In this document: positions 19,696 to 35,161 of the stretch, piece by piece
Layout: every line of letters starts with the position of its first letter
Numbering within the stretch: position 1 is the first letter of the stretch
Assembly: GCA_902628375.1 (NCBI GenBank)
Contig: CACOMS010000011.1
Location: 1 to 38,818, forward strand
DNA from: an uncultured SAR86 cluster bacterium
Lineage (GTDB): Bacteria > Pseudomonadota > Gammaproteobacteria > Magnimaribacterales > Magnimaribacteraceae
Reading direction: 5' to 3'
Length of the DNA: 38,818 nucleotides
Program-made: the position numbers and the translations under genes
Notes under the pieces: model-generated
The model's database searches: none
What the model saw: the letters and a program-made list of their open reading frames with translations, nothing else
Told to the model about the DNA's origin: nothing

Positions 19696-21792
19696 TTAGT
19701 TTTCTTTAGGTGTATACCAAATTGGAGAAGACCATGCCCTCTCCTGAATAGTTGCCTGAAGATCTGGCCTTGGTTTATGACCGTTTTTAATAGCGTCCCA
19801 AGTTGACCATCTACAAGAAGGGTTTTCTAAGACTCTTACATAATAAAATGCTTTTTCATTTTCATTAAAGTCTGGATCTTTCCATACAACTTTAAGTTCA
19901 GAAGATCCCCTATCTGCGCTTACTGAACAATCAGATAAGTTAACTTTTGCTCCATTATCAGGGCACCTATGTGTAATTGGATCTGGACTTAGCCCATCAG
20001 AGCAAGAAACGTCGTATACCTGCTCATTTGGTTTACCTATTGGCATTTTACTGACTGAACCTTTTACAATTTGTATACGCTGCAGAGCTCCACCATTTGC
20101 ATCTCGAATAGCCCATACTAAGAAATTTGGAGAATTTTCAGAAGTACCAACTATATCTCCTCCCATAGGAACTCCTTTTGAATAGGCATCCTTAATCATA
20201 GTTTTAGAATTTAATATGGATTCATCTATATCTTCAGAAGCAAAAAATCTTAATTTTATTCTTGTTCCAGAGGTTGCATATGTTTCTTTTCTTCTAAAGG
20301 CACTAAAGATTGAGTCTCTAGTATTTTCTTCTGCCCAAACCACAGCTAAACCTGAAGCCCCCCATTGCTTAAAAACAGTATCGTTATAATATCTATCGCC
20401 TATTTTTTTAACGCTTATTTGTCTCAGATCAACATTAGCTAACAATTCTGCATTTTCCGGTGTTAAAGGCACTGAACCTCTTCCTTCTGGTGTTCCATCT
20501 AAAATACCTACTTTAGAAGTAAAATCAGCTTCATTATCTGAAATAGCTGCTGTATGAGTGTCGCTAGCTCCAACCATACCAAATTTATAAGGATTCCCCC
20601 TTCCTTCTTCTTCCATGCCTAATCCATCTAAGTAAGCTTGTCTTACATAACTACCAAAAGGTCTACTGTAAGTACTCACGCCAACTCTTTGATCCATAAT
20701 CTCAAAATCAGCCCATTCATCATTAGGAGATAAAAGAGGATGAGTTTCAGATGTTCCTTTAACTTGAGTCATTTCAACTAAAGGTTCATTCCTCATCCTA
20801 AATTCAGCATATTGATTTCCCATAGGAAATCCTGCCCAATCTTCTACTTCAAACATCTGTCCATTAGAACCATTAGAGTTATGAGGAATTGCAATGGTGT
20901 CCACACCCTTCTCTCTTAACATTTCCATCCAAGTCCATAAATCTTCTGGGTTTAAAGACTTTAAGCGTGAAAAAGGCTCTTTAGTAAATTTATTCCCATT
21001 GAAAATTACGTTTCTATGTAAATTAGCACCCTCATGAGGAGGATATCCTCCTAATGCACATGCGGCAGGAGCTCCAGATATCAAACACCTTGTCATAGAG
21101 GCGCTATCGGGTATATCTGCAGATCTTGTAGTTGATGAAGTATATTCATATGCAACAAAGGTAGTAAATTTTCCAGGATTATTATGTTCTTGTGCGCTCC
21201 TTATAATATCTTGCCAAGCAGACCTGTGAGCATCAAGATCATATAAAGTGGTTCCTAAAGCCTGGTCACCTCTTATACCTGCTTTCAATCTAGTCCAAAA
21301 ATTAGAATATACATTTACATTTCGGACGTAACTTTGAAATAGGTTACCTCTCTGAGGTATAGAGTCAGTCGTAAGGTTTTCAGGTAAATTGATATTATGA
21401 AAGGGTTCAGTACCTTTTATACCATTTTCAGGATCTGCCCACCTTTCAACCTGTCCTAAAAGAAAACCATGGTCGGTCACAGCATAAAAATCTAAAGGGA
21501 CTCTTAATTTCATATCGTAACCTAAAGCATGCTGAATAGTATCCCCTTTTGCGTATCTATAAGCGTCATCAGGACTAGCTGTTGTTCCAAAGATATGTGC
21601 ATCAAACGAGTGCTTTGTATGAACATGTAAATCTCCGAAATAAGCGTTTCTCTCAGTACTAAAATCAGAACTTGAGCCACTTACATATTCAGATTTGTCT
21701 AAATTAGAATAATCATCTACATCATTTGCATCATTGCAACTGACTATAAAAAGTAGCACAAAAAAACTTGTAAGAACCTTTATAGAATTCAT
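19696..21792 (-). CDS. DUF3604 (PHP-like) exported lipoprotein, copy A
   Basis: A protein of 698 residues with lipobox FIVSC (Cys19), so it is probably an outer- or inner-membrane lipoprotein. The DUF3604 pattern is clear: NAYFGDLHVHTKHSFDA (His56-x-His58), FYAVTDHG (Asp107-His108), IPHNSNGSNGQMF, and GMVGASDTHTAA, which together look like the metal-binding residues of PHP-type phosphoesterases. C-terminal Cys-rich segments (VSCSDG, HRCPDN, PSCRW) may form disulfides. The biochemical activity of DUF3604 proteins is not established to my knowledge. It is a close paralogue of 21878-23956 and has an extra segment with two cysteines (about 225-255) that the other copy lacks. Confidence 0.9.
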   Translation of the reverse strand: MNSIKVLTSFFVLLFIVSCNDANDVDDYSNLDKSEYVSGSSSDFSTERNAYFGDLHVHTKHSFDAHIFGTTASPDDAYRYAKGDTIQHALGYDMKLRVPLDFYAVTDHGFLLGQVERWADPENGIKGTEPFHNINLPENLTTDSIPQRGNLFQSYVRNVNVYSNFWTRLKAGIRGDQALGTTLYDLDAHRSAWQDIIRSAQEHNNPGKFTTFVAYEYTSSTTRSADIPDSASMTRCLISGAPAACALGGYPPHEGANLHRNVIFNGNKFTKEPFSRLKSLNPEDLWTWMEMLREKGVDTIAIPHNSNGSNGQMFEVEDWAGFPMGNQYAEFRMRNEPLVEMTQVKGTSETHPLLSPNDEWADFEIMDQRVGVSTYSRPFGSYVRQAYLDGLGMEEEGRGNPYKFGMVGASDTHTAAISDNEADFTSKVGILDGTPEGRGSVPLTPENAELLANVDLRQISVKKIGDRYYNDTVFKQWGASGLAVVWAEENTRDSIFSAFRRKETYATSGTRIKLRFFASEDIDESILNSKTMIKDAYSKGVPMGGDIVGTSENSPNFLVWAIRDANGGALQRIQIVKGSVSKMPIGKPNEQVYDVSCSDGLSPDPITHRCPDNGAKVNLSDCSVSADRGSSELKVVWKDPDFNENEKAFYYVRVLENPSCRWSTWDAIKNGHKPRPDLQATIQERAWSSPIWYTPKEN

Positions 21793-21817
21793 CCTAACTC
21801 CCCCAATTAAATTATTT

Positions 21818-21839
21818 ATCTGACGTATTTATATCAGAT
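21818..21839. repeat. Short inverted repeat upstream of DUF3604 copy A
   Basis: ATCTGA (21818-21823) and TCAGAT (21834-21839) form a perfect 6-base inverted repeat around a 10-base AT-rich spacer, 26 bases upstream of the copy A start. It could be an operator; it is too AT-rich and has no T-run suitable for an intrinsic terminator. The match is short enough to be chance. Confidence 0.3.
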
Positions 21840-21877
21840 TCAACAAGGAATGCATAAATTTTTTAAATCGGTTATTT

Positions 21878-23956
21878 TTAAACGTCTTCGGGAAGGATAT
21901 TCCTAAGAGCTTCTCCTTCTGGTGGTATATACCAAATCGGTGATGACCAAGCCCTTTCTTGTATTGTGCTCTTCAAGTTAGGTCTTATAGGTGTGCCATT
22001 TTTTATGGCATCCCATGTTGACCACCTACAAGTAGGATTTTCTAATACCCTTACATAATAAAATGCTTTTAGTGATGGATCGAACTCTGGATCTGACCAT
22101 ATAGCCTTAATTTCATCAGAACCTATGTTTTTACTTATCTTGCAAGTTTTTAAATCTACTTTAGCTTTTGTTTCTGGACATCGATGACTAATAGGATCTG
22201 GTTTATTATTTCCAGAGCAGCCTATGTCAAAAATTTGTTCATAAGGTTTACCGCTAGGCAATACCCATCCTTTTATAATTTGAACACGATCTAACGGAGC
22301 TCGTTTGGCATCTCTTATTGCCCAAATGAGAAAATTTGGTGTTTTGCCATCTTGATGAAGAAGGTCGGAACCCATAGTAACCCCTTTTTCATAGGCAATA
22401 CTGATTAAATCCTGACTATCTAATATTGAATCATCAAAACTATATCCAGAAAAAAATCTAACTTTAATTCTACTTCCAGTTGTTGCAAAAGTTTCCTTCC
22501 TTCTAAATGCATTATAAATAGCTTCTCTTGTATTTTCTTCGGCCCAAACTGCCGCTAAACCAGAAGCTCCCCATTCCAAAAATCCTGAATCCATAAATTC
22601 ATTTCCATCATATTCTGAGGTGTCTGGAAAAATGATATTCAATCCACCTAAAAGTGCATCTGCTACTTCATCTTCTAAAGGAACAGATCCTCTTAATTGA
22701 GGTGTTCCGTCAATAATTCCAACCTTTGAGTGATAATCAGCTTCGTCGTCTGATATAGCTCCTGTGTGTGTATCGCTCGCGCCAATTAAACCGAACTTAT
22801 AAGGATTGATATTAACCTCGGCCTCTAAAGAAAGTCCTCTTAAGTAAGCATCTCTTACATAACTACCGGGAACAGAAGAATAGAAAGGGGATGCAACTCT
22901 ATTATTCATGATCTCAAAATCAGCCCATTCGTCATTTGGTGACAATAATGGATGTGTATCTGATGTGCCTTTAACTTGAGTAATTTCCACTAATGGTTCA
23001 TTTCTCGATCTTTGTTCAGAATATTCCAAAGTTAGAGGATTACCTGCCCAATCTTCTAGTTTAAACATTTGACCATTGGAGCCATTTGAATTGTGAGGTA
23101 TAGCCAAGCTTTCTACTCCCTTTTCTCTTAATCTATCCATCCAATTCCATAAATCTTCGGGATTCATAGAATCTATTATTGAAAAAGGTTGTATGGGAGC
23201 ATTTGAGTCTTTAAAAATTACATTTCTATGAAGATTACTCTGTCCTGGACCAGAGGATGTAAATTCATAAGCTATAAATGTAGTAAATTTACCAGGTTCA
23301 TTATGCTTTTCTGCTGCAAAAGCTATGTCCTTCCAGGCAGATTGATGAGTTGCTCTATGAAAGGCCCTAGTTCCATAAACAGTATCTTTCTGGAGATAAG
23401 CCATGAGAAGCTTAAAAGGATTTTTTGAAGGTGTAACTAATTCGTTAGCTATTAAATTTCCAAAAATATTAGATCTTCTAGGAGTTGTATTAACGTTTAA
23501 ATTTTCTGGATTATTTAAACCATGTAGATCTTTAGCAAAATCTAATTTACCAGGGATAGAGTTAGGATCACTATAAGCCTCCAACATACCTAGCCAAGCT
23601 GCATGGTCAGTTACAGCATAAAAATCTAGAGGATCTTGTAGTTTCATCTCAAAACCTAAAGGATGGTTTATAGGCTTACCTTTGGCATAAAGGTAAGCTT
23701 GATCTGGTGAATTTGTAGTTCCAAAAATGAAGGCATCAAATGAATGTTTTGTATGAACATGAAGGTCGCCAAAATATGCGTTCTTATTTAAATTGGCTAC
23801 TTCGCTGGAGTATTTTGATTCTTTATTATCTACTAAAGAAAAATCTTTAGTTTCATATTTTATAGATAAAATTTCACTGTAACCTAAGATCCATATTGTA
23901 AAAATCAATATGCTTATTGATATCAAGAAGGATCTTATTTTAATTAATTTACTCAT
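21878..23956 (-). CDS. DUF3604 (PHP-like) membrane-anchored protein, copy B
   Basis: A protein of 692 residues with an N-terminal hydrophobic signal or anchor (about 9-31) and no lipobox, unlike copy A. The DUF3604 motifs match those of copy A: NAYFGDLHVHTKHSFDA (His66-x-His68), FYAVTDHAAW, IPHNSNGSNGQMF, LIGASDTHTGAI, and the C-terminal HRCPE and PTCRWSTWDAIKNG segments. Copies A and B are separated by 85 bases with an imperfect promoter-like AT-rich stretch, so they arose by tandem duplication and may be separately expressed. The ATG lies downstream of a divergent promoter region with a LexA box and has no recognisable ribosome-binding site, so a leaderless start is possible. Confidence 0.9.
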   Translation of the reverse strand: MSKLIKIRSFLISISILIFTIWILGYSEILSIKYETKDFSLVDNKESKYSSEVANLNKNAYFGDLHVHTKHSFDAFIFGTTNSPDQAYLYAKGKPINHPLGFEMKLQDPLDFYAVTDHAAWLGMLEAYSDPNSIPGKLDFAKDLHGLNNPENLNVNTTPRRSNIFGNLIANELVTPSKNPFKLLMAYLQKDTVYGTRAFHRATHQSAWKDIAFAAEKHNEPGKFTTFIAYEFTSSGPGQSNLHRNVIFKDSNAPIQPFSIIDSMNPEDLWNWMDRLREKGVESLAIPHNSNGSNGQMFKLEDWAGNPLTLEYSEQRSRNEPLVEITQVKGTSDTHPLLSPNDEWADFEIMNNRVASPFYSSVPGSYVRDAYLRGLSLEAEVNINPYKFGLIGASDTHTGAISDDEADYHSKVGIIDGTPQLRGSVPLEDEVADALLGGLNIIFPDTSEYDGNEFMDSGFLEWGASGLAAVWAEENTREAIYNAFRRKETFATTGSRIKVRFFSGYSFDDSILDSQDLISIAYEKGVTMGSDLLHQDGKTPNFLIWAIRDAKRAPLDRVQIIKGWVLPSGKPYEQIFDIGCSGNNKPDPISHRCPETKAKVDLKTCKISKNIGSDEIKAIWSDPEFDPSLKAFYYVRVLENPTCRWSTWDAIKNGTPIRPNLKSTIQERAWSSPIWYIPPEGEALRNILPEDV

Positions 23957-30344: not shown

Positions 30345-30566
30345 TTAAACAGAATATTTAGGTTTAGATATTTTCCATAAGGGCGGTTTCTCACCCTCTC
30401 CTATCCATAGAAAATGATGACAAACCATATTTGGATCGACATATTCGGGTGTCGCAATAATAGTTAAATCATTCTGCTCGCAGTATGTTTCAATTTCCTC
30501 TATTGAATCAGCGAACAAGTAGACTGGTTCTTTATCTCTATCTCTGGTTGTTGCAAACTTTGTCAT
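30345..30566 (-). CDS. 73-aa protein of unknown function downstream of MadM
   Basis: I do not recognise this protein. It has no signal or membrane span and looks like a small mixed alpha/beta domain (KEPVYLFADSIEEIETYCEQ, NDLTIIATPEYVD, MVCHHFLWIGEG). The two histidines and a cysteine in VCHHFLW could bind metal. The start overlaps the madM stop by 4 bases (ATGA), so it is translationally coupled and probably acts with the transporter or its operon. Confidence 0.65.
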   Translation of the reverse strand: MTKFATTRDRDKEPVYLFADSIEEIETYCEQNDLTIIATPEYVDPNMVCHHFLWIGEGEKPPLWKISKPKYSV

Positions 30567-31327
30567 AGTAAATTAACAATTAAAAATAATATGGTTGGAA
30601 CGATTAGACAACCTAATCCAGTATAAAAAGTAGCTGTCATAGCACCATAAGGTACTAATTTAGGATCAGTTGCTGCTAATCCAGCAGCTACTCCGCTATT
30701 TGTTCCCATTAAACCCCCATATATTAAAGCAGACCTTGGATTATTTAAACCAACAAATGGGGCAAAGAATGGAGTTGTTACCATAACTAAAATTGACTTA
30801 ATTATGCCCGCTGCAATACTAAGAGTCATAACTTCTGAAGAAGCACCTAATGCCGTACCCGTTACTGGCCCAACCAAGAAAGTAACTGTTCCTGCTCCAA
30901 TTGTAGTAATGCTAACAGGGTCAGTATAGCCAAAAATAACTGCTACACATGCACCTATGGTAAAAGATAAAATTACTCCTATAAATAAAGAAAATATTCC
31001 TGCAAAGCCAGCTTTCTTTAATTCTTTCGTATCTAATCCGTAGGCTGTAGCTACAATAGCAAAATCTCTGAACATAGAGCCTCCAAGAATAGCCAATCCA
31101 GAGAATATAGTTATATCTGCTAATCCTTTAGTTCCTCCTGTTGCTTTTCCACCCAAATAAGCCAGTGAGAGACCTATAATTATTGCTATAGCTGAACCAT
31201 GAAATTTACCGTTAGTAAATTTATTAGATATGAAGTAAGAAATCCAAATAATACATCCCACAAACAAAAAAGCTGTTATGACTCCATTTCCAATAAATAC
31301 AGATTCTATTGATTGAAAAAAATCCAT
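30563..31327 (-). CDS. madM: Malonate transporter subunit MadM
   Basis: An integral membrane protein of 254 residues with about seven or eight spans. The Gly/Ala/Thr-rich segments FSGLAILGGSMFRDFAIVATAYG (about 75-97), VTFLVGPVTGTALGAS (about 147-162) and YGGLMGTNSGVAAGLAATDPKLVPYGAMTATFYTGLG (about 202-238) match the MadM family, the larger half of the MadLM sodium-malonate symporter. It overlaps madL by one base. No malonate decarboxylase or malonyl-CoA synthetase gene is in this window, so use of the imported acid is not explained here. The neighbours (PQQ dehydrogenase, exported hydrolase) hint that the cargo may be an acid released from a polymer or ester. Confidence 0.9.
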   Translation of the reverse strand: MDFFQSIESVFIGNGVITAFLFVGCIIWISYFISNKFTNGKFHGSAIAIIIGLSLAYLGGKATGGTKGLADITIFSGLAILGGSMFRDFAIVATAYGLDTKELKKAGFAGIFSLFIGVILSFTIGACVAVIFGYTDPVSITTIGAGTVTFLVGPVTGTALGASSEVMTLSIAAGIIKSILVMVTTPFFAPFVGLNNPRSALIYGGLMGTNSGVAAGLAATDPKLVPYGAMTATFYTGLGCLIVPTILFLIVNLL

Positions 31328-31680
31328 TACTTACCTATTTTTGAGATGAGAGGAATCATTAAAAAGGATATAAATACTGCCAGGCTTCCACCTATAATAG
31401 CTATCATCCCACCATCTATAGCTGCAATTACATTTTGTTTAGCAGCCATTGCAACAACTATAGGAATATAAATAGCACTCCAAAAAGTAATTCCTTTTTC
31501 ACTAACTTCTCCAAAATTAAGATTAACTTTTAAATAATTAGAAAGAAAAATTAGAATAAGCATTGCAAATCCTACACCACCTAGATTTGCGTCTATACCT
31601 AGAAGATATCCAAAAAATTCTCCTAATATGAGACCCAGCAAAAAAGAAAATGCCAGTAAAGTTACGCCATATATAACCAT
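31327..31680 (-). CDS. madL: Malonate transporter subunit MadL
   Basis: A protein of 117 residues with four hydrophobic spans, which matches the small MadL subunit in length. LLGIDANLGGVGFAMLILIFLSNYLK (about 26-51) and FWSAIYIPIVVAMAAKQNVIAAIDGG (about 66-91) are characteristic. It forms the MadLM malonate:sodium carrier together with MadM, whose gene follows with a one-base overlap. Its own ATG overlaps the stop of the LpqC-type hydrolase gene by one base, so transporter synthesis is tied to that of the hydrolase. Confidence 0.9.
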   Translation of the reverse strand: MVIYGVTLLAFSFLLGLILGEFFGYLLGIDANLGGVGFAMLILIFLSNYLKVNLNFGEVSEKGITFWSAIYIPIVVAMAAKQNVIAAIDGGMIAIIGGSLAVFISFLMIPLISKIGK

Positions 31681-32621
31681 TATTCTTTTAATTGTTTCCT
31701 TAAAAAGAAATCTATTATCATTTCGCTCGCATTAACTGTATAACTAGCTCCAGTAAAACACGGCCTTCCAGGCCAACAGTGGCCTCCATTCTTGATTGTA
31801 CACAATGTAACTTCTTCGTTTGAAACTCCACAAAAGTTATAAGTTTCACAACTTACATCCTTCTTTTTAAAAGAAATTTCTGAAGGATTAGGGCACTTAT
31901 TCTTATTTGCCCAAACCTTAAGCATATTAGGAGCAGACATAGTAGAAAAGCCTCCTGGTTTATCATATCTTGAAACGAAGTCACTTGTTCCGTGAAAAGA
32001 TAAAGTGGATATCGGTCTAGATAGATCACAATTTTCAGGCTCTAGAGAAAGAACACCAGCTACAGGTGCTATAGCAGCAATTAAATCAGCTGCATCACAA
32101 GCTAGCCTATAGCTCATTCTTCCCCCATTAGACATGCCAGTTGCATATATTTTAGAGGAGTCTATACATATTTTTGTTTTAAGATCTTTAATTAATTCCC
32201 TAGTAAATGAGACATCGTCTCTAGGTTCTTTACTAAAATCTCTTTTATTAGTTGGAGATTTCATTGTTAAGCCAGCATTAAAAACCTGCCTACCATTAAG
32301 ATTCTTTCCTTGAGGATTAACATGTATAAATTTTCTTTCTTCTGCGATTCTATCTAAGTCTGAATATGCAGCTTGCTGGTCTGCATTACTACCTGTTCCG
32401 TGATAATTGAGAACAACTGGCAGAGGTAAAAAATTAGAATGATCCTTTGGTATGAAAACCCTATACTCTCTTAAAGAATCTTCATGCTCTATTTTAATTT
32501 TTGTTATACCTTCTGGTAAGGATGACTTAGAACATTGGTCATTAGCTATTATTTGATTACTTAATAATAGTAATAAAATTAATGGTGCTAAGAAGATATC
32601 TCTATAGTTCATGTTATTCAA
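31680..32621 (-). CDS. PHB-depolymerase/LpqC-type secreted alpha/beta hydrolase
   Basis: A 313-residue exported hydrolase of the esterase/PHB-depolymerase (LpqC, feruloyl esterase) group. It has a signal peptide (APLILLLLLSNQIIA). VVLNYHGTGSNADQQAAYSDLDRIAEER (about 69-96) is the oxyanion region, GMSNG (about 162-166) holds the nucleophile Ser164, FHGTSDFVSRYD supplies the acid and NGGHCWPG the histidine. Multiple cysteines (CETYNFCGVS and others) suggest disulfides. Substrates may be polyesters, feruloyl or other esters, or beta-diketones: oxidised-polyvinyl-alcohol hydrolase is a relative as far as I recall. It overlaps the PQQ enzyme gene by 8 bases and madL by one. Confidence 0.88.
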   Translation of the reverse strand: MNNMNYRDIFLAPLILLLLLSNQIIANDQCSKSSLPEGITKIKIEHEDSLREYRVFIPKDHSNFLPLPVVLNYHGTGSNADQQAAYSDLDRIAEERKFIHVNPQGKNLNGRQVFNAGLTMKSPTNKRDFSKEPRDDVSFTRELIKDLKTKICIDSSKIYATGMSNGGRMSYRLACDAADLIAAIAPVAGVLSLEPENCDLSRPISTLSFHGTSDFVSRYDKPGGFSTMSAPNMLKVWANKNKCPNPSEISFKKKDVSCETYNFCGVSNEEVTLCTIKNGGHCWPGRPCFTGASYTVNASEMIIDFFLRKQLKE

Positions 32622-34461
32622 TTGAAAAAGCTAAAAATATATTTCCTGTCATATGTCCATTTATACTATATCCACTAGAAGTGTATACCCATGAATCACT
32701 TACCACAGGACCCTGAGCTTCTATTGAACCACCTACAGCTGGTTTTTTATTTACAGTATCCGGGTACCTTTTAAAAGTATCATATTTCCATAATTTAGTT
32801 CCTGTTTCAGAATTCACTGCATAGAATTGACCATTTAATGAGCCAACGAATATGACATCATTTGCAACTGTAGGAGGTGCAGAAAAACCATCGCTACAAG
32901 ACCCTTTACCGAATAGAGGCTGTCTATTGTCTCTTTTGCAAATAAAATCAGGCTTAAAAGCCCATTTAATTTCTCCAGTATCTATATCAAGAGCATATAA
33001 ACCTGGTTGAGGTTTCCATTCATAAAGAGATTCATCGGAGGCGACATATCTATCTGAATTTGATGCAAATAATAAATTCTTACTTGTTGCCATACCAAAA
33101 TGTATTCCTCCTAACTTCCCCCCTCTTCCTACTCTTGTACTCCAAATAATTTCGCCAGAATCTTGGTTCATTGAATATATCCATCCTGACTTCTGACCTG
33201 ACAACAAAACATCTTCTCCCTTAGAATTTTTTTCTTTAATTACTCCCGCTCCAAAATCTAAATCTGGTCCATCTTCGTCTGGGCAATTAGGATTCATGGG
33301 CACTTCACAAGCTACATTATGAGCATCCCCACTGGTAGTTTGAGTTGCCCATTTCCTTTGTCCAGTGTCTAAATCTAAAACAATAATTGCATCACTGAAT
33401 TCAGAAGCTGGTGATTGTGTACTTTGTCCAGTGCCAAAAAAGATAGATCTACTTTGTTTATCAATACCTGGAGTATTCCAGACAGAAGCTCCTGCTGGTG
33501 CATATTTTTTTACAAAAGTTGGCATGACTCTTCCTACTCGTTTAGCCTCGGGTAAAACTCTATGCCTCCATAGCAAGTCACCATTTTTTGCGTTTACAGC
33601 AGCAACTCCACCACTAGAGGTGCAACATGGATGAGCAGGATTAACAGCTACAGCAGTTTCTACAGTTGATAGAGGGATAATAAGGATGGAGTCGTCTAAA
33701 GATAATGAACCTGTAGCAAAATCATATTCAGATTCTTTTCCTAAACTTTTTTTCCATATTCGTTTACCTGTAATCAGGTCTATTTTATAGACCAAAAAAT
33801 CATGATCAAAAGCAAAAGCATAAAAGCCTTCTTTTTCGTCATATACAAGTGAGTTACTAATATAAGAATCAAATGAGAATTTCCAATACTGACACCCTGT
33901 CCTTTTATCTAAAGCATATAAAGTTCTAGAGCTTGGTATGAGGAGTAAATCTCCGATTATTATGGGTTGCGATCTTGAATTTCCTCCTTCAAGAGCAAAT
34001 GACCACTTTAATTTAAGTTTTGTTACGTTGTTACTGTTTATTGAGGTGTTATCTTGTTTTCTCTTATTAAAAGCTCCATTACCCCAACCTGTCCAATCTG
34101 ATCCTGTTAATAAATCAACCTCATTAAGCTTGTTATTGCATATTTCTGGCGTGTCTTTTAAATCTGATGTATTTACATTACTTATAGTTCTAGCTATTAA
34201 TTTCTTTTCTTCTTTTGATAAATTAGTTGACATAGGTTTCATTTTTCCTGAATCCATAGAAAAATATAAAGCTTCCTCACTCCAAAGAGATAGGTCTTCC
34301 AAAGAGGGTATTTCTGAAGACTGATTTGTATGACAACTAGAACAGTTCTTTTCTATTAACTTCTTAGCCTTAATTACATTTTTCGGATTTTCAGGTGGTT
34401 CTAAAGAATAGATAAATATAGGTAGAAATAAAAAGAAACAAAGGAGAAATTTATTCTTCAT
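32614..34461 (-). CDS. PQQ-dependent alcohol dehydrogenase with N-terminal cytochrome c domain
   Basis: A 615-residue exported quinohaemoprotein. A signal peptide (KFLLCFFLFLPIFIYSL) is followed by a cytochrome c domain with Cys40-S-S-Cys43-His44 (haem c) and a likely Met ligand at MKPMS. A beta-propeller of repeated W-rich blades follows (LKWSFALEGG, KRIWKKSLG, GDLLWRH, GQRKWATQTTSGDA, GEIIWSTRVGRG, GEIKWAF, GTKLWKYD), which binds PQQ. The vicinal pair Cys279-Cys280 (HPCCTSSGG) matches the disulfide ring seen in methanol-dehydrogenase-type enzymes. The closest enzymes by layout are polyvinyl-alcohol dehydrogenases, which also carry haem c first. It oxidises an alcohol in the periplasm and passes electrons to the haem. 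It is coupled to an esterase and a transporter gene. Confidence 0.9.
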   Translation of the reverse strand: MKNKFLLCFFLFLPIFIYSLEPPENPKNVIKAKKLIEKNCSSCHTNQSSEIPSLEDLSLWSEEALYFSMDSGKMKPMSTNLSKEEKKLIARTISNVNTSDLKDTPEICNNKLNEVDLLTGSDWTGWGNGAFNKRKQDNTSINSNNVTKLKLKWSFALEGGNSRSQPIIIGDLLLIPSSRTLYALDKRTGCQYWKFSFDSYISNSLVYDEKEGFYAFAFDHDFLVYKIDLITGKRIWKKSLGKESEYDFATGSLSLDDSILIIPLSTVETAVAVNPAHPCCTSSGGVAAVNAKNGDLLWRHRVLPEAKRVGRVMPTFVKKYAPAGASVWNTPGIDKQSRSIFFGTGQSTQSPASEFSDAIIVLDLDTGQRKWATQTTSGDAHNVACEVPMNPNCPDEDGPDLDFGAGVIKEKNSKGEDVLLSGQKSGWIYSMNQDSGEIIWSTRVGRGGKLGGIHFGMATSKNLLFASNSDRYVASDESLYEWKPQPGLYALDIDTGEIKWAFKPDFICKRDNRQPLFGKGSCSDGFSAPPTVANDVIFVGSLNGQFYAVNSETGTKLWKYDTFKRYPDTVNKKPAVGGSIEAQGPVVSDSWVYTSSGYSINGHMTGNIFLAFSIE

Positions 34462-35068
34462 ATTTTAGTTTTCGAATCTTTTTAAAAGCTTCTCTGGCAA
34501 AAAGCATGTCTGTCCATCTTTTTATATTAGGTTTATAAGCCTCTTCTATTCCAAGGTTTCCTGCCAAAAATATTGCATAACTTACACAGATATCTGCAAT
34601 TGTGAATCTGTTCGAGCAAAGATATTCTCTATCAGCAAGGGTTTTTTCTAAAAGTTTAAGCCTAGCAACAAACCATCTCCTATAGCCTTCAGCAGCTTTG
34701 TCTGCAACGCCGGGTTCTTGTAGTGTGTATCTTATAAAAACTGTTTGTGGAAAAGTTAATGTTGCATCTGAATGAGTTAGCCAGTTTAGGTAACTTGCAT
34801 AATCTTCTTCATCAACATTTACCTTTAGATCTGTTGGTCCATATTTATCAACAAAATACTGACTTATGCCTACTGATTCAGTCATTCTTGCATCTCCATC
34901 TATCATGTAAGGGATAGTTCCCAATACATTGATATCTAGATAATCAGGTTTTAGAAATCTAGGAGGAAACGGAAGCATTTCTACTTCATAATTTAAACCC
35001 ATCTCTTCTGCGGTCCAAATGGGTCTCATGCCTCTTGAATCTTCACATGTGTATATTTTTATGGTCAT
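34451..35068 (-). CDS. Glutathione S-transferase-like protein
   Basis: A 205-residue GST: N-terminal thioredoxin-like part (KIYTCEDSRGMRPIWTAEEMGL), the VLGTIPYMIDGDARMTESVGISQYF segment (about 48-72) with cis-Pro and the E-S glutathione motif, and an all-helical C-domain with NRFTIADICVSYAIFLAGNLG. It resembles bacterial beta/theta-type GSTs. The usual Cys or Ser nucleophile is not obvious in its N-terminal region (CEDSRG offers both). An AGGAGGA ribosome-binding site precedes the ATG, 17 bases after the tRNA-Gly 3' end, so it may be read from the tRNA promoter. Its 3' end overlaps the PQQ enzyme gene by 11 bases. Confidence 0.88.
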   Translation of the reverse strand: MTIKIYTCEDSRGMRPIWTAEEMGLNYEVEMLPFPPRFLKPDYLDINVLGTIPYMIDGDARMTESVGISQYFVDKYGPTDLKVNVDEEDYASYLNWLTHSDATLTFPQTVFIRYTLQEPGVADKAAEGYRRWFVARLKLLEKTLADREYLCSNRFTIADICVSYAIFLAGNLGIEEAYKPNIKRWTDMLFAREAFKKIRKLKYEE

Positions 35069-35085: not shown

Positions 35086-35161
35086 TGGAGCGGGTAACCG
35101 GAATCGAACCGGTATCATCAGCTTGGAAGGCTGAGGTAATAAGCCGTTATACGATACCCGC
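35086..35161 (-). tRNA. tRNA-Gly (anticodon TCC)
   Basis: The complement reads as a complete 76-base cloverleaf: acceptor GCGGGTA paired with TACCCGC, anticodon stem TCAGC/GCTGA with the loop CTTCCAA giving anticodon TCC, T-arm ACCGG-TTCGATT-CCGGT, then discriminator T and encoded CCA. The only tRNA in the window. It is followed by a GST gene in the same direction, with 17 bases between. Confidence 0.95.

Follow-up and report, generated by a model that had tools for sequence, protein, structure and literature searches.

Results

Six overlapping genes in a SAR86 genome

SAR86 bacteria are abundant in surface oceans. The window analysed in this study is a stretch of 38,818 nucleotides from one of them, whose genome assembly amounts to 1.13 Mb in 47 contigs and is 67% complete. 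This genome, G000 of genus g1, belongs to a family sample of 35 genomes, in which the genus codes g1 to g7 are working labels. Six genes follow one another on the minus strand of the window. The first encodes a GST-like protein of 205 amino acids (34451..35068), which is recognised by Pfam GST_N/GST_C. It is followed by the gene for an N-haem quinohaemoprotein alcohol dehydrogenase of 615 amino acids (32614..34461), assigned by Pfam/NCBIfam models, homology, AlphaFold, Foldseek and residue conservation, and by that for a predicted secreted esterase of 313 amino acids (31680..32621), which the NF050058 profile and its PDB match place among LpqC, feruloyl-esterase and type-1 PHA-depolymerase-like enzymes. 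Then come the malonate transporter subunits MadL (117 amino acids, 31327..31680; TIGR00807) and MadM (254 amino acids, 30563..31327; TIGR00808), and a 73-amino-acid protein without known domain (30345..30566). An ORF call confirmed these coordinates and the overlaps of 11, 8, 1, 1 and 4 bases. The Pfam/NCBIfam matches agree with the families originally proposed for the GST, the cytochrome c plus PQQ propeller, the PHB-depolymerase-like hydrolase, MadL and MadM.

The overlap of 8 bases presumes a TTG start of the hydrolase gene; an in-frame ATG three codons on (32612) would leave a 1-base gap. Among the same-strand neighbour pairs in the window, 20 of 24 lie within 20 bases of each other and nine overlap. 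Because tight packing is normal in this window, overlap alone is a weak sign of shared function. Promoter-like matches in the window did not rise above the shuffled background, and terminator-like matches (seven against a shuffled mean of 3.4) were located inside genes and hence disregarded. Immediately upstream of the GST gene there is a tRNA-Gly(TCC) gene (35086-35161). At 19696-23956 the window also encodes a tandem pair of similar large proteins (698 and 692 amino acids), which have the YFGDLHVHTKHS motif in common and are possibly of DUF3604 type.

The dehydrogenase and its relation to PVA dehydrogenase

The dehydrogenase is composed of a hydrophobic N-terminal signal, a CSSCH haem site (C40-C43-H44) and a PQQ beta-propeller, as recognised by Pfam/NCBIfam. 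In the alignment C40-C43-H44 are conserved, as is M74, the likely axial haem ligand, and the vicinal cysteines 279-280 are invariant. D400 is near-invariant and is our preferred candidate for the catalytic aspartate, which is a reading and not a result, the profile alignment being ambiguous across residues 379-402. The AlphaFold model has a pLDDT of 89.4, and its best Foldseek matches are PQQ alcohol dehydrogenases. By sequence, the nearest proteins of known structure are quinohaemoprotein and other PQQ alcohol dehydrogenases, whose matches span part of the propeller.

The original prediction compared this enzyme with polyvinyl alcohol (PVA) dehydrogenase. One of the proteins that match it over the full length among plasmid records is a dehydrogenase from Sphingopyxis sp. 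113P3 (30% identity, E=8e-82), and the gene of that protein adjoins a close match of crystallised oxidised-PVA hydrolase (OPH), with a cytochrome c gene nearby. Because the characterised pva operon of strain 113P3 is chromosomal according to the genome paper (PMC4611681), we took the plasmid locus to be a second operon of pva type. In the plasmid record (L057, NZ_CP009453.1), the OPH of this operon is annotated as a hypothetical protein. The window enzyme shares with the dehydrogenases of pva-type operons the N-terminal signal, the N-terminal haem c followed by the PQQ propeller, the vicinal cysteines and the GPD motif. The neighbours of the pva locus are OPH and cytochrome c, whereas those in the SAR86 window are MadLM and a different kind of esterase. 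No OPH or cytochrome c gene adjoins the dehydrogenase in the window or its orthologues in SAR86. Beside the N-haem dehydrogenases examined outside SAR86, neither OPH nor a homologue of the window hydrolase was found, except for the OPH of the second 113P3 operon.

In a tree of 72 rows, the N-haem proteins are split from the C-haem-type quinoproteins of the SAR86 order by a very long branch. The pva reference in this tree is the 113P3 plasmid copy, the characterised chromosomal PVA dehydrogenase not being among the rows. A single clade (SH-aLRT 100) unites the SAR86 orthologues and is distinct from the one that holds the 113P3 protein (support 97), and a constraint joining the SAR86 clade to the 113P3 pva-operon enzyme was rejected (AU p=0.0025). 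The deep branching order is unsure, since the search behind the tree was quick and several of its rows are odd in composition. The proposed kinship with PVA dehydrogenase thus holds for membership of the N-haem superfamily, as opposed to the usual C-haem type, but not for the pva-operon clade. Members of the N-haem PVA-dehydrogenase-like family were found in Pseudomonadota, Bacteroidota and Myxococcota. L051, L052 and L053 carry a second paralogue of the N-haem PQQ dehydrogenase, with about 35% identity to the window enzyme. Its branches between genera g2 and g5 are very short, and it is far less diverged than the orthologues, a pattern that may reflect either recent transfer or a binning error.

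The hydrolase

The hydrolase matches NF050058, the model of type-1 scl-PHA depolymerases, over nearly its full length (residues 47-306) with 134.1 bits, which is below the curated cut-off of 150, and its best PDB match is a feruloyl esterase (E=5e-22). The motifs GMSNG, GTSD and GGH suggest, by alignment, a catalytic triad of S164-D214-H281, and they are kept in the L142 relative, which is 53% identical. These features, together with a predicted secretion signal, are those of type-1 PHA depolymerases, feruloyl esterases and LpqC-like esterases; the hydrolase differs from the type-1 PHA depolymerases in its score below the cut-off and in having no substrate-binding domain. A structure model built from two sequences was poor (pLDDT 54) and was left out of the evidence.

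OPH (PDB 3WLA, 3WL5-3WL8) resembles the hydrolase as an alpha/beta-hydrolase of the wider PHB-depolymerase group. However, only 61 residues around the nucleophile align with it (28% identity, E=4e-4), no OPH structure is among the PDB matches of the hydrolase, and the NF050058 score of OPH is just 44 bits, against 134 for the window protein. Identification of the hydrolase as an oxidised-PVA hydrolase was rejected because of this low score and the absence of full-length similarity to crystallised OPH. The part in PVA degradation first given to it is thus replaced by that of an enzyme of the LpqC/feruloyl-esterase/PHA-depolymerase type.

Some match to LpqC/PHA-depolymerase-like proteins is found in 33 of the 35 SAR86 genomes, and the window genome encodes three more. 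An orthologue of the hydrolase inside the dehydrogenase unit is present only in G000, G007 and G015 (3/35 genomes), the two genes being adjacent in g1 and g2. In G001 and G004, a different alpha/beta-hydrolase is encoded directly upstream of the dehydrogenase.

Malonate transport and PQQ supply

MadL and MadM are adjacent and score above the equivalog cut-offs of their models (135.7 bits against 113.45 for TIGR00807 and 368.9 against 236.3 for TIGR00808), so the assignment as a malonate-type transporter stands. In both respects they resemble the MadLM malonate:sodium symporter; the difference is that the malonate decarboxylase subunit MdcA was found in none of the 35 family genomes. MadM occurs in 24 of these genomes but in just 3 of 274 genomes of the class, the window genome included; in the remaining two it lies beside an MdcB or a malonyl-CoA synthase gene. 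A malonyl-CoA-synthetase (MatB)-like gene, with a 45-50% identical match, is present in 19 of the 35 family genomes, and MatB was above the model cut-off in the four SAR86 genomes tested. Of the 24 MadM-positive genomes, 15 have this gene, and in several g6 genomes its distance from MadM is 13-14 kb. Malonyl-CoA decarboxylase is present in 3 of the 35 family genomes. The window's own 67%-complete assembly gave no MatB-level match and no malonyl-CoA decarboxylase.

Because so many MadM-positive genomes encode a malonyl-CoA synthetase, imported malonate would have a use without the dehydrogenase. This would offer a separate explanation for the transporter, which had been taken to import the product of the dehydrogenase and hydrolase. 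Malonate is probably activated by a malonyl-CoA synthetase encoded elsewhere. In another SAR86 genome (G008; L239:6722-14905), a 2727-aa protein adjoins the malonyl-CoA synthetase. The MadL of L181 was considered as a parallel to the dehydrogenase-MadL pair of SAR86 and rejected; it is separated from the dehydrogenase by more than 6 kb and by unrelated genes, and it is encoded on the opposite strand.

PQQ-type dehydrogenases are common among the 35 SAR86 family genomes. Neither PqqE nor PqqC was found in any of them (0/35 each), whereas the PqqC model, as a control, gave a match in 5 of 8 other genomes carrying such dehydrogenases. Since these synthesis genes were found in no family genome, the dehydrogenase probably depends on PQQ scavenged from outside.

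Conservation of the gene order

The original prediction regarded the six genes as one unit. Their exact string occurs in no other family genome examined, and a core of dehydrogenase-(hydrolase)-MadL-MadM-(UPF0047 and small proteins)-73-aa gene is found in 10 of 35 genomes, from genera g1, g2, g4 and g5. In these ten, the dehydrogenases are about 50% identical, and dehydrogenase, MadL and MadM lie on one strand. In g6, the main other genus, MadLM is placed without the dehydrogenase, between a TauE transporter and a block of small-protein, quinone-oxidoreductase and GST genes. The g6 dehydrogenase is located elsewhere, beside DUF6152/DUF6644-type genes or between hisA and hisF. The latter place was seen in two SAR86 genomes (L037 and L048), where the names of the hisA- and hisF-like genes were given by eye from the sequence. 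In G001, which is 93% complete, MadM is missing genome-wide and MadLM is gone; the dehydrogenase and the 73-aa gene keep their places.

Both dehydrogenase and MadM are present in 17 of the 35 genomes, the dehydrogenase only in 4, MadM only in 7 and neither in 7. This association is weak (Fisher p=0.07, uncorrected for phylogeny and drawn from incomplete genomes). Synteny over this region extends to unrelated neighbours, namely PhoD, an amidohydrolase and acyl-CoA dehydrogenases, which makes adjacency alone weak evidence.

The GST gene heads the string in the window genome only. Its orthologues in other SAR86 genera (72-87% identical) adjoin a zinc-type quinone oxidoreductase gene on the far side of the 73-aa gene and are encoded on the opposite strand. 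The 73-aa protein has no Pfam or NCBIfam match; in 11 more SAR86 genomes, the equivalent position is taken by homologues with 42-52% identity and the family motif RPxYVxPxxVxxxFxWVG.

Discussion

The six genes probably make up an ordinary lineage-specific neighbourhood of SAR86, with recognisable gene types and one uncharacterised oxidase, rather than an established pathway for one polymer. The dehydrogenase would be exported to the periplasm, bind haem c together with PQQ supplied from outside the cell and oxidise an alcohol, and its electrons would pass through the N-terminal haem to the respiratory chain. The hydrolase would act in the periplasm as a carboxyl-esterase, releasing small alcohols or acids. 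MadL and MadM would import malonate, which the malonyl-CoA synthetase found in most MadM-positive relatives would turn into malonyl-CoA. The members of the string would then be compact-genome neighbours that travel together in part of the SAR86 lineage. Separation of the dehydrogenase from MadLM in g6, and the occurrence of each without the other, are consistent with such loose neighbours. On the other hand, the one-strand order of dehydrogenase, MadL and MadM in ten genomes points to a possible functional link, the co-occurrence of dehydrogenase and MadM leans positive, and the incomplete genome of the window itself yielded no MatB.

A tighter connection of the genes can be pictured in two ways. 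In a pathway of PVA type for a natural polyol, the dehydrogenase would make a beta-diketone and the hydrolase would cleave a C-C bond as in the pva operon. The common N-haem architecture and the full-length homology to the pva-operon dehydrogenase are what this has in its favour, but the AU test places the dehydrogenase outside that clade, the hydrolase shares only a short segment with OPH and far outscores it on the depolymerase model, and no cytochrome c gene adjoins, unlike in the pva operon. We consider such a pathway very improbable. The PVA logic behind the undescribed marine route suggested by the original prediction, for a polyol, polyketide-like or polyester substrate, is accordingly unsupported, and with it a new pathway for a plastic-like polymer, because the hydrolase is not OPH-like, the dehydrogenase falls outside the pva clade and the unit is kept in part of SAR86 only.

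Alternatively, the esterase may act first and release a hydroxy acid or diol, such as 3-hydroxypropionate or a short oligoester unit, which the dehydrogenase would oxidise to malonate for import by MadLM and use by malonyl-CoA synthetase. All these steps are encoded or plausible, with esterase, alcohol dehydrogenase and MadLM in the string and MatB in relatives, and the conserved adjacency in ten genomes would fit, as would the hydrolases next to the dehydrogenase in g1, g2, G001 and G004. Yet hydrolase and dehydrogenase share a unit in three genomes only, the dehydrogenase of g6 lies apart from MadLM, either can be found alone elsewhere, and no assay ties 3-hydroxypropionate to this dehydrogenase family; this route is therefore unlikely, though less so than the PVA-type one. 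A further possibility concerns the window genome itself. Its dehydrogenase carries Ser at residue 202, a position occupied by Arg in 65 of 69 relatives, among them all 12 other aligned SAR86 orthologues, and this is its sole departure across 83 near-invariant columns. The change might impair the enzyme if residue 202 has a part in its function, but the reading frame, the haem site and all remaining near-invariant residues are intact, and a base error is possible in a contig of an incomplete genome, so that impairment is highly improbable.

In the literature searched, nothing useful turned up on PQQ or malonate in SAR86, and no biochemistry of any SAR86 member. To our knowledge, a periplasmic route to malonyl-CoA through an N-haem quinohaemoprotein, an esterase and MadLM has not been described. 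As a long shot, it is conceivable that SAR86 makes malonate from some hydroxy ester or diol that is abundant in dissolved form in the sea. Its distinct N-haem quinohaemoprotein clade, working with scavenged PQQ and a partner esterase, would carry out the conversion, MadLM would take up the malonate and MatB would activate it.

In conclusion, the first annotation of the genes was good, and the link of the cluster to malonate is unproven. Homology alone does not warrant a PVA-degrading annotation for the large N-haem PVA-dehydrogenase-like family. The SAR86-specific haem-PQQ dehydrogenase clade, in genomes in which no PQQ-synthesis genes were found, points to PQQ obtained from other organisms, and the SAR86 dehydrogenase provides a defined enzyme for testing alcohol oxidation in the sea.
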